DNA of 64,000 bases from NCBI GenBank assembly GCA_009676745.1, contig CP046062.1, positions 1 to 64,000 of the forward strand, in the 5' to 3' direction. The position numbers were made by a program, and so were the translations under genes. Source of the stretch: Leuconostoc mesenteroides subsp. mesenteroides. Lineage in GTDB: Bacteria > Bacillota > Bacilli > Lactobacillales > Lactobacillaceae. Below are positions 11,155 through 38,847 of this stretch, one piece after another; position 1 is the stretch's first letter; each line of letters starts with the position of its first letter. Below the pieces are notes generated by a model. The model saw only the letters and a program-made list of their open reading frames with translations, ran no database searches and had not been told where the DNA came from.

Positions 11155-11168
11155 AAAAAAGTTGAATT

Positions 11169-11252
11169 GCGGATATGGCGGAACTGGCAGACGCGTACCG
11201 TTCAGGTCGGTATGGTGGCAACACCGTGCAGGTTCGATTCCTGTTATCCGCA
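11169..11252 (+). tRNA. tRNA-Leu (anticodon CAG)
   Basis: Acceptor GCGGATA/TATCCGC (7 bp) with discriminator A. Anticodon stem TACCG/CGGTA encloses loop TTCAGGT, giving CAG for codon CTG. A long variable arm (TGGTGGCAACACCG) is typical of class II tRNA-Leu, and the T loop reads TTCGATT. The 3' CCA is not encoded. Single tRNA with its own promoter and terminator. Confidence 0.95.
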
Positions 11253-11254
11253 TA

Positions 11255-13669: not shown

Positions 13670-14812
13670 TTAAATCATCTCCAAGTGCAATTGTTGTGGC
13701 TTTGCCCAACCCATTTTACGCATGAAACGATAACCAACAAATGAAACAATCACCGGAACACCTACACCGATAATCATGTAAGCAGCAAAGGCAGCAGGGT
13801 TTGATCCCGCCAATGCCAACGGAACGATAAACGAATTAAATCCAATACCAGCCATTGAGAAAGGTGCAGTAACATTAAATACAATTGTTGCAATTGGGGC
13901 GGCAATTGCTGCGCCAATCATTGGCGGAATAATCAAGGCAGGATTTTCAGTCAAATTTGGAAATTGAATTTTTGGCGTGACGATACCCTGAGCAATTGTT
14001 GCACCAATTTTATTTTCGTGAAATGACATTGCAGGAAAACCAACGAATACAGCCGTTGTACCAATTAAGATTGCTCCGGCAGCCTCTGGTGAAGTTACAC
14101 CAGTTGCACCAATTGCTACAGCTAAAGCCGCTGCAGAAGCTGGCGTCATAGTCATTGCACCAAAAGCCATGGCAACAATGGCTGTACCAATAATTGGGTT
14201 CACTGCAACACTTGAAGCAATAAACTTTCCGACTGCAACCAAGGCTGGCGTTGTAACAGCAGCCAAGTAGTATCCAGACACCGTCCCAACAATCGTTGTT
14301 GCCGCTGGAACAATAACCATATCTAAGGGCGTCTTGCCACTTAACCACTTACCAAACAATACAGCAATCACACCCGCCATAACAGCTGAAATTGGTTGCC
14401 CAGTGGTCATTATAGCTGACCCAGCAGCTTGTGTACCAGCGTATCCAGTTGCTGTCACACCCGCCACCGCTTTATCTGTGAAGAAAACAGCGTTAGCACC
14501 AACTGCTGAGGCAGCCATCGCACTAAACATAACCATTGTATTCGTTTTCATTTGTGATGCAATTGCTGCGCCAAATGCTGCTGGCAACATAATTTTAGTA
14601 ATTGCGCCCATTTGAACCATTGGTGCCCAGTGGATAAATCCCGCAATTGTCTGCAACAATAGTCCCATACCCAAGGTGACTAAAATGGCGTTTGAGACAG
14701 CTGCACTGACTTTATAAACAGTATCACGAACTGACTCTTTTTCTTGAGTCATTTTTTCTTTAATTTGATCCGTATCAATTTTATGTTGTGGTGTAATTGC
14801 GTTTTGTGCCAT
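13670..14812 (-). CDS. PTS EIIC-like membrane protein (PTS_EIIC_2 type), leucine-attenuator controlled
   Basis: 380 aa, very hydrophobic, roughly ten membrane segments, with a charged 35-residue cytosolic N-terminus. Recognised by general resemblance to the PTS_EIIC_2 family (small-residue-rich helices, TPASAAALAVAIGATGVTSPEAAG, FPAMSFHENKIGATIAQGI). No IIA or IIB domain or PTS partner gene is nearby, so sugar transport is unsupported. GGAG and ATG 14812 set the start; an in-frame upstream codon lacks a site. The upstream leader peptide is packed with Leu codons and ends in an attenuator, which suggests a role tied to leucine or branched-chain compounds rather than sugar. Confidence 0.7.
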   Translation of the reverse strand: MAQNAITPQHKIDTDQIKEKMTQEKESVRDTVYKVSAAVSNAILVTLGMGLLLQTIAGFIHWAPMVQMGAITKIMLPAAFGAAIASQMKTNTMVMFSAMAASAVGANAVFFTDKAVAGVTATGYAGTQAAGSAIMTTGQPISAVMAGVIAVLFGKWLSGKTPLDMVIVPAATTIVGTVSGYYLAAVTTPALVAVGKFIASSVAVNPIIGTAIVAMAFGAMTMTPASAAALAVAIGATGVTSPEAAGAILIGTTAVFVGFPAMSFHENKIGATIAQGIVTPKIQFPNLTENPALIIPPMIGAAIAAPIATIVFNVTAPFSMAGIGFNSFIVPLALAGSNPAAFAAYMIIGVGVPVIVSFVGYRFMRKMGWAKPQQLHLEMI

Positions 14813-14868
14813 GTTATTTCTCCTGTATAATAACTTAATTCCGATATGAGCTACTAACAATCGCTGGC

Positions 14869-14907
14869 AAAAACAAAACGTCCCAACGATTGCTCGTTAG
14901 GACGTTT
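14869..14907 (-). terminator. Attenuator terminator of the leucine leader
   Basis: A 14-bp stem AAACGTCCTAACGA (14907-14894) with TCGTTGGGACGTTT (14889-14876), one G-T wobble, loop GCAA, then a T-rich tail to 14869. The gene starts about 57 bases later. Confidence 0.88.
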
Positions 14908-14985
14908 CCTACCTAACCAGCTACTCTGACTCTTTTAGTAAAAGTCCAGTAGCTGATTATTGCTCAAATAACAACCTACTAGACT
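14896..14985 (-). promoter_or_regulatory. Competing helices of the leucine attenuator
   Basis: Three exclusive pairings: B:C, AGTCTAGTAG (14985-14976) with CTACTGGACT (14952-14943), 10 bp with one wobble; C:D, TAATCAGCTACT (14959-14948) with AGTAGCTGGTTA (14925-14914), 12 bp with one wobble; D:E, GTTAGG (14917-14912) with CCTAAC (14901-14896), which takes the terminator 5' arm. B begins at the leader stop codon. Confidence 0.65.
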
Positions 14986-15047
14986 CAAATGAGAAGAAGG
15001 TTGAGGAGAAGTACGTTATTTTGTTGTGCTTGTATATTTTTAGCCAT
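14985..15047 (-). CDS. Leucine-codon leader peptide (20 aa)
   Basis: The 20-residue ORF ends VLLLNLLLI before TGA; six Leu codons (CTT CTC CTC, AAC, CTT CTT CTC) occupy 15011-14991. GGAG (15058-15055) lies seven bases before the ATG. Stalling at Leu codons would leave segment B free to pair with C, freeing D to hold the terminator 5' arm; a ribosome at the stop would mask B and allow termination. Such composition is very unlikely by chance. It is too short to be a conventional gene. Confidence 0.8.
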   Translation of the reverse strand: MAKNIQAQQNNVLLLNLLLI

Positions 15048-15097
15048 AATGCGTCTCCATTTTTTGAGCGAATTACTCGCTTATTTCTATGAATATT

Positions 15098-15126
15098 AAT
15101 ATACTCCAATAACATTTTTATGTCAA
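15098..15126 (-). promoter_or_regulatory. Promoter of the leucine leader
   Basis: TTGACA (15126-15121), 17-base spacer, TATATT (15103-15098). Transcription would begin near 15090 and include the leader peptide. Confidence 0.8.
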
Positions 15127-37943: not shown

Positions 37944-38150
37944 AAAAAATCCCTATGCTTAAAAGCATAGGGACGCAATAGCGTGGTACCACCCAATGTT
38001 TAGCAGTACAAAATACTGCCCTTCACAGAGTTTTAACGATCCTCACCGGCTTAGCTTACTAGATATTTATATTCAGCTAAACAAAATAGTAACTGATCTA
38101 GTCAACATCAGGGACGATCATCTCTAACCACCATGACTCGCTGCACGTAT
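37944..38150 (-). ncRNA. T-box leader of ileS
   Basis: Canonical T-box GGGTGGTACCACG at 37994-37982, followed by terminator TCCCTATGCTT/AAGCATAGGGA and TTTTTT (37973-37944). A long upstream stem I region lies at about 38130-38050; ATC in CTAGATCAG is a candidate Ile specifier but I could not fold it with certainty. It senses uncharged tRNA-Ile to allow read-through. Confidence 0.92.
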
Positions 38151-38184
38151 GAATGCTAACCTTACTGTGTTACGCTTTTTATAA

Positions 38185-38847
38185 TTATTTATCGTCTTCG
38201 TCTTGTTCCGATCCCGGAAACACTACCACAGGGCCTTGCTCTTCGCTTGACACCGCATCGTTTTGTTCTTTATCAGGTTCAGGGATAACAACTGGCTCAG
38301 CCTTTGCAACTTCGCCAACACGATGGGCAGTTACTTGTCCCATCGGTAACCGATGAACCGCTTCTGCTAACTCATCGCTTTCTAATAGTTTACGCTGAGA
38401 TTCCAACAATTGCAAGAATGAATTTTTAAAATCTTCAACTTCAGTACGCAATTGATTTTGTTCATTCGTTAATTCAGCATTTTCTTGGGCCAAACGAACA
38501 GCATCTGCATCTGCCTTTGCTCGAGCATCATTAATAATTTTTGTTGCTGCTTCTTGGGCATGAGTTAACTGTTTTTTCACTTCTACATCCGCATCTTGCT
38601 TCAAGCGGTCAGCTGCTTCTTGGGCAACAAAGATTGATTGATTCACTTGATCACGTTTTGATTCAAGCTCTTCAATTTTAGCTTGAGCTAGCTCATTTTG
38701 ACGCTTTAATTCATCGCGTTCTGCAATCAATGCTTCATAATCACCATTAATTTGATCTAAAAAGGCATCGACATCTGTAGCAATGTAAGCTTTACTGCCT
38801 TTTTTTGTAAATTCATGATTTAAAATTTCATCGGGTGTTAACGCCAT
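38185..38847 (-). CDS. divIVA: Division-site/pole protein DivIVA
   Basis: 220 aa. Membrane-curvature-binding coiled-coil scaffold. N-terminal LTPDEILNHEFTKKG...VDAFLDQI is the lipid-binding domain, then a long coiled coil (about 30-165) and an acidic tail ending EQDEDDK. Conserved place after ylmH in the division cluster; AAGGAGAAAAAT precedes the start. Confidence 0.94.
   Translation of the reverse strand: MALTPDEILNHEFTKKGSKAYIATDVDAFLDQINGDYEALIAERDELKRQNELAQAKIEELESKRDQVNQSIFVAQEAADRLKQDADVEVKKQLTHAQEAATKIINDARAKADADAVRLAQENAELTNEQNQLRTEVEDFKNSFLQLLESQRKLLESDELAEAVHRLPMGQVTAHRVGEVAKAEPVVIPEPDKEQNDAVSSEEQGPVVVFPGSEQDEDDK

Follow-up and report, generated by a model that had tools for sequence, protein, structure and literature searches.

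The window analyzed here, a 64,000-nucleotide (nt) stretch of Leuconostoc mesenteroides subsp. mesenteroides (CP046062.1), contains on its minus strand a gene for a 380-amino-acid (aa) protein of the PF13303 (PTS_EIIC_2) family (13670..14812). The leader of this gene, whose elements all lie on the same strand, very probably acts as a transcription attenuator in which the translating ribosome senses the charging of tRNA-Leu; it would control the PF13303 gene and belong to a regulon with leuABCD. Upstream is a promoter, TTGACA-17 nt-TATATT (15098..15126; TTGACA at 15126-15121 and TATATT at 15103-15098), that matches the consensus at 11 of 12 positions, in agreement with an earlier sequence-only reading of this DNA; the count of promoter-like matches itself (1 found, 1.4 expected) was not above chance. 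A Shine-Dalgarno sequence, GGAG (15055..15058), is seen seven bases before the ATG (15047) of a 20-codon open reading frame (ORF), MAKNIQAQQNNVLLLNLLLI (14985..15047; stop codon at 14987-14985). Its core codons, CTT CTC CTC AAC CTT CTT CTC, include six Leu codons in two blocks, so that the ORF, its ribosome-binding site and its Leu codons are confirmed as first described.

Seven segments with alternative pairing partners were delineated in and downstream of the ORF. Segment A (CAACC, 14999..15003) lies within the Leu codons and pairs with GGTTG of segment B (GTCTAGTAGGTTG, 14972..14984), whose first base (14984) directly follows the leader stop codon, as had been claimed. Segment C (CAGCTACTGGAC, 14944..14955) can pair with B or D, and segment D (AGTAGCTGGTTAGG, 14912..14925) with C or E, the D:E pairing being the antiterminator. 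Segment E (CGTCCTAACGA, 14894..14904) is the 5' arm of the terminator and pairs with F or D; segment F (14879..14889), the 3' arm, was placed by pairing conservation and a terminator scan, and the U-tract (14869..14878) is evident from the sequence. Segment G (CCAGCGATTGT, 14857..14867), 3' of the U-tract, is complementary to F plus the terminator loop. In the window sequence, B:C comprises 12 pairs and one bulged base, C:D has an 8-pair core that extends to 12 pairs in the free fold, D:E has 6 and 3 pairs flanking one mismatch, and E:F has 11 pairs, or 15 when the A/T flanks are included in the terminator scan. The mutually exclusive helices and the terminator proposed from the sequence are thus present, with B:C longer than the 10 pairs given and a terminator of 11 or 15 rather than 14 pairs; the 12 pairs given for C:D agree with the free fold, and segments B to D and the terminator stand as claimed, whereas A and G had been missed. 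The terminator scan yielded two sites over the two strands together (0.1 expected), and the terminator lies between the leader and the gene. The leader RNA was more stable than all 200 of 200 dinucleotide shuffles (z = -6.85), and a longer piece gave z = -5.82.

The leader is conserved together with the gene. An orthologue with at least 76% identity was found in 23 of 60 genomes, including the window genome, and a Leu leader preceded it in 23 of 23 cases; in a second set, 28 of 29 loci had an orthologue with at least 73% identity, and all 28 had a Leu leader, while none was found before the remaining locus (L062, 49% identity). The two sets overlap and give 33 distinct leaders once identical ones are dropped. 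Leaders of Leuconostoc and Periweissella end in LLLNLLLI or a similar sequence (exactly so in 17 of 20), and those of Fructobacillus, Convivina and two relatives contain LLLSLL, LLLNLL, LLRSLL or LLRNLL. One Leu of the block is replaced by Gln or Arg in 5 of the 33 distinct leaders (L012, L013, L021, L026 and L061). Codons shift from CTC/CTT to mostly TTG with Leu retained; CTC is the rarest Leu codon in the window, at 52 of the 1709 counted in 48 ORFs that were called mechanically.

Pairing was counted in two alignments of quite different sequence, one of 20 Leuconostoc/Periweissella leaders and one of 12 leaders from the sister group, i.e., Fructobacillus and relatives. In the first, the segments were paired in 100 of 100 (A:B), 240 of 240 (B:C), 155 of 160 (C:D), 179 of 180 (D:E), 213 of 220 (E:F) and 212 of 220 (F:G) cells. 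In the sister group, 5 or 6 of 6 A:B pairs were formed, and B:C, C:D and E:F were paired in 132 of 132, 132 of 132 and 120 of 120 cells, respectively. Because A:B pairing is kept there with other letters, the two Leu blocks are separated by Asn in the one group and mostly by Ser (AGC) in the other. Two-sided changes affected four pairs of A:B, C:D and E:F taken together in the first alignment (two of them in E:F), four pairs (eight cells) of F:G, and nine pairs of C:D and E:F in the sister group; in each case, 0 of 500 shuffles reached the observed number. When partners were slid by 1–3 columns as a control, pairing fell to 10–61%. The orthologue alignment had been set as a test beforehand, and in it the Leu codons and helices are kept, while C:D, E:F and F:G show two-sided changes.

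The D:E duplex was estimated at -13.6 to -16.8 kcal/mol in 22 of 33 leaders, compared with a mean of -7.2 kcal/mol for shuffled segments; the other 11 leaders were not parsed by the script. Seven of these (L026, L052, L053, L055 and L058-L060) formed 9 of 9 pairs in the sister-group pairing count, L013 was counted in the first alignment, and L056 runs into N. L025 and L048 formed 5 of 9 pairs in that register and by eye seem to use a GGTTAGG:CCTAAC register instead, while L061 also formed 5 of 9 pairs in the sister-group count, yet was parsed for the energy estimate.

The positions fit the classical attenuation scheme, since the stop codon abuts B, the Leu codons cover A, and D engages the 5' arm of the terminator. 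From this layout, we infer ribosome stalling and a response to leucine as follows. When leucine is plentiful, the ribosome would reach the leader stop codon and cover B, so that C:D and E:F form and transcription terminates before the gene. When leucine is short, the ribosome would stall on the Leu codons and cover A, B:C would form, and free D would capture E before F is made, which would permit read-through. Without translation, A:B would leave C:D and the terminator in place. Segment G cannot act in the termination decision because it is transcribed after that decision; F:G, made only after read-through, may hold the read-through transcript open; apart from such a lock, an element affecting mRNA stability is the other role we propose. 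In the Fructobacillus group, whose gene begins soon after the terminator, no G-like stretch was seen. The his attenuator uses the same A-F logic.

Several results weigh against this scheme. For B:C and D:E in the first alignment, only one two-sided pair was found, a number reached by 32 of 500 shuffles, and B:C in the sister group showed one-sided changes only, with every measure equal to that of the shuffles. The support for B:C comes from the 372 of 372 pairs formed in the two alignments together and from the slid controls. A:B does not vary within the first alignment, and the number of further pair types was nowhere above the shuffles (54, 500, 130 and 500 of 500 reached the value). In the window sequence, the closed state (A:B, C:D and E:F) was estimated at -31.9 kcal/mol and the open state (B:C and D:E) at -25.4 kcal/mol; since the closed state is better by 6.5 kcal/mol at equilibrium, switching would have to be kinetic, with the open state winning by timing, as in other attenuators.

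Sister copies tie the element to leucine. A covariance model (R1) built from 24 leaders and run on the 60 genomes matched 23, the same 23 that have the orthologue, and gave no match in the 37 genomes without it; in each genome, one match is a leader used for training or nearly identical to one, and has no proof value. Beyond these, 15 of 19 Leuconostoc genomes contained 28 further matches with E values of at most 0.001. In the window genome, one copy precedes the gene of a NicO-family (nickel/cobalt type) permease (gene and attenuator at L193:1600-2622 and 2803-2948, the latter being C1:499302-499447 of the window genome), with leader MNKKIKKMNYSLLYLLLS (SLLYLLLS). Another copy, with leader MNKNARKPNNILSNLLIN, precedes a gene whose 280-aa product matches a helix-turn-helix model weakly (L193:17788-17932, C1:514287-514431 of the window genome; also in L194, L195 and L197); the match, to HTH_3, lies below the cut-off (19.8 vs 23). 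The attenuator of this gene carries Ile and Leu codons, e.g., MNKNIKKLNNILIILLIS in L194.

A third copy in the window genome precedes leuA of leuABCD, with leader MSSTAIQHMNNHEVLLLNLLSVYLTS and the block VLLLNLL (E = 3e-4 in 70,567 bases searched); it was too weak for the R1 search of the 60 genomes. Such a copy stands before leuA in four of five stretches fetched, including that of the window genome, and the blocks in the three other genomes, before a leuA-like gene, read ALLLNLL, ALLLNLL and VLSLNLL; the leu genes were identified by family model in the window genome and leuA elsewhere by its translated start only. Because this copy precedes leuA, it links the attenuator to leucine independently of the PF13303 gene, and together with the comparative data it supports the leucine specificity and the enterobacterial type of attenuation logic that had been proposed. 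The attenuator of the PF13303 gene would then be one copy of a leucine regulon that includes leuABCD.

In the window genome, leuB, leuC and leuD exceeded their model cut-offs, while the 2-isopropylmalate synthase matches of leuA were below theirs. This leuA is short (393 aa, L193:9093-10271). Of the 60 genomes, the 37 that belong to the window's family, the window genome included, gave no match to LeuA_dimer (PF08502), the domain through which leucine exerts feedback control. The absence of PF08502 first suggested that leucine is not synthesized, a view rejected because the short leuA and leuBCD were found. Since leuA is short and has no PF08502 match, attenuation may replace the feedback control of LeuA by leucine. 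In Periweissella beninensis (L046:1334-2266), the start of leuA is fused in frame to a later portion of leuC, and the leuD beside it looks intact; this fusion is a remnant of a leu operon beside the attenuated permease gene.

Two other explanations of the leader itself were weighed. A chance ORF before an ordinary terminator, with helices of no regulatory role, has in its favor that short Leu-rich ORFs do occur (at the local Leu frequency, an ORF has a chance of ~0.006 of containing at least six Leu in 19 residues); conservation across genera, the two-sided changes and the sister copy before leuABCD refute it, and we give it virtually no weight. Nascent-peptide arrest or a general slowing of the ribosome, in place of sensing tRNA-Leu charging, would account for the nearly invariant C-terminal LLLNLLLI of the Leuconostoc/Periweissella leaders. 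However, RNA pairing accounts for the Asn codon, which belongs to segment A and is replaced mostly by Ser (AGC) in the sister group with pairing to B kept; the residues flanking the Leu block vary between the groups; other paralogues have Ile/Val in the same design; and the leuA leaders have the Leu block in common but not the remainder. We therefore regard arrest as very unlikely.

The regulated protein has PF13303 as its sole domain, and its closest relative found, with 98% identity, is from Leuconostoc mesenteroides. Databases name such PF13303 proteins of Lactobacillaceae PTS sugar transporter IIC or toxin regulator. The predicted fold over residues 28-374 is that of PTS EIIC of the glucose superfamily (MalT, PtsG and ChbC); no relative in the PDB was found by sequence. 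Proteins of this superfamily take part in phosphotransfer with EIIA and EIIB partners and are marked by a GITE motif with its Glu, together with an invariant His. The motif was present in none of 52 homologues, among which no Glu or His column exceeded 0.83, compared with three of the four PF02378 proteins of the window genome (residues 364-395), a comparison made by motif only. In another alignment, 1 of 16 rows (L028) had the letters GITE near the N-terminus, at residue 42. Compared with PTS EIIC, the protein thus shares the predicted fold and differs in consisting of the PF13303 domain alone, in having no GITE motif and in its regulation of the branched-chain amino acid (BCAA) type.

Regulation by BCAA codons extends to other members of the family. 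A 45%-identical PF13303 paralogue in the same genome has a leader, MNSLSSTNFTQIIKINVVIII, with Ile and Val codons. In eight leaders of this Ile/Val type, B:C duplexes (-12.2 to -24.3 kcal/mol) and C:D hairpins (-13.1 to -20.2 kcal/mol) were found, and seven of the eight had terminators and D:E duplexes (-12.4 to -19.4 kcal/mol); in the eighth (L177), the script misplaced the terminator, and its D:E and terminator values are void. Four loci (L050, L051, L056 and L061) have a second PF13303 copy in tandem, and the tandem copy in Fructobacillus has an Ile-rich leader, e.g., MYKLMQTNQAQSQVIIIVSLLNN. Upstream of more distant homologues, a Shine-Dalgarno-led short ORF rich in Ile, Leu or Val was found in 33 of 106 regions, which were chosen among the matches listed in longer lists and are not independent where genomes are related. 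Over 40 rounds of shuffles, the average was 5.7 and the highest count 10; the reverse strand gave 4, and other residue triples gave 0 to 14, the highest containing I, L or F (KNI 14, SLF 12 and FIY 11). Five of the 33 (L094, L098, L129, L143 and L154) look like chance, with TTG/GTG starts and no codon run, and are still counted.

One homologue (L093, 54% identity) has a T-box match upstream (73.6 bits, Rfam cut-off 93; E = 8.5e-15), whose specifier may be CUC, a leucine codon, as read from the alignment. Rfam scans of 79 distant-homologue upstream regions (E up to 0.01) returned only this T-box and, on L134, two matches to plant microRNAs, which were taken as chance; at the gathering threshold, 15 further loci gave one rRNA and no regulatory RNA.

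Gene neighborhoods were compared in 28 loci. In seven, livK and livH lie within 100 bases downstream of the gene and brnQ ~1.1 to 2.2 kb upstream; in two, a BcaP-like permease gene lies directly downstream, so that livKH or a BcaP-like gene is the direct neighbor in 9 of 28. LivK and LivH were below the NCBIfam cut-offs and above the Pfam ones (PF13458 and PF02653), and the BcaP-like proteins were named by best match (440 and 443 bits vs a cut-off of 690). The other 19 loci had no liv, brnQ or BcaP-like gene within the stretch examined, with the exception of L047, where a remote permease (21% identity to the BcaP-like one) lies ~440 bases downstream. At the window locus, the next gene downstream is on the opposite strand.

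Given this regulation and neighborhood, the PF13303 protein is probably an importer of leucine or of a branched-chain compound close to it. We also lean, a little less firmly, towards the view that the PF13303 lineage in Lactobacillaceae consists of BCAA permeases that have the PTS EIIC fold and no longer depend on phosphotransfer, with paralogues divided between leucine and isoleucine/valine and each attenuator reading the codons of its own substrate. Regulation and neighborhood likewise support, as a prediction, the earlier suggestion of a protein that transports or senses leucine or a related branched-chain compound. Two findings speak against it: the window genome also encodes BrnQ, above both NCBIfam and Pfam cut-offs, so the PF13303 protein is not the sole candidate importer, and 73 of the 106 upstream regions had no BCAA leader by the survey rule. 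The main alternative holds that the attenuator is a true leucine attenuator and that the protein exports or senses a compound, or transports a sugar or another solute required in leucine shortage. This seems unlikely, though far less so than arrest of the nascent peptide, in view of the two paralogues in one genome with Leu and Ile/Val leaders, respectively, the livKH or BcaP-like genes directly downstream in 9 of 28 loci, and the lack in the 52 homologues of the GITE motif, which three of the four PF02378 proteins of the window genome do carry.

If this view of the PF13303 lineage as BCAA permeases is correct, proteins now annotated as sugar PTS permeases would need a new family name, the EIIC fold would serve amino acid uptake without phosphorylation, and the codon content of a leader would predict, in a testable manner, the substrate of each paralogue. 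Leuconostoc would likewise gain a leucine attenuator regulon comprising a permease, leuABCD, a NicO-type permease and a helix-turn-helix regulator. The mechanism itself is known, also in Gram-positive bacteria, and the possible new biology lies in the protein. In the open-license PMC literature, nothing was found on the PF13303 gene or the attenuator, and one paper names PF13303 in passing.

Among known systems, leader-peptide attenuation occurs in Gram-positive bacteria as well (PMC5794164, PMC9413887, PMC2965389). The his, leu and trp attenuators of E. coli and Salmonella share the short ORF with tandem regulatory codons, the alternating ordered pairings and the decision by ribosome position (PMC9413887); the present leader differs from them in having no Rfam match, an extra downstream segment G complementary to the 3' arm of the terminator, and a PTS-like permease as its target. 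The ilv-leu attenuator of Staphylococcus aureus is similar in its Gram-positive host, Leu-rich leader, terminator and antiterminator, and BCAA-related target, and differs in its 26-aa leader with Leu and three Ile and in its position before ilvD, a biosynthesis target (PMC5794164). The leu-phe_leader of Lactococcus lactis (RF01743) is similar in being a Leu/Phe leader RNA of a lactic acid bacterium (PMC2864571). Identity with RF01743 was rejected: under stricter filters, 0 of 41 genomes matched, including the window genome, nor was there a match in the window, while the L. lactis control matched. The Leu T-box (RF00230) also senses leucine supply and, as noted above, may precede one PF13303 homologue; it differs in sensing tRNA directly without translation. 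A Rfam scan at the leader gave no match to any family, and a T-box there was rejected since the RF00230 covariance model did not match.

Some minor features were also recorded. The window genome has 23 T-box matches, six of them above the Rfam cut-off, and one match falls within the window (37966-38186, minus strand; 68.7 bits, cut-off 93). A tRNA-Leu with anticodon CAG lies on the plus strand at 11168-11253; because it reads CUG, unlike the CUC/CUU codons of the leader, its nearness to the attenuator is probably due to chance. Finally, a small hairpin, AGCGA/TCGCT, was seen 5' of the leader ORF (15067-15081, minus strand). It is possibly a 5' end protector. Many of the other Leuconostoc species have AGCAA/TTGCT in its place, so that both sides have changed, as read off the alignment and uncounted.
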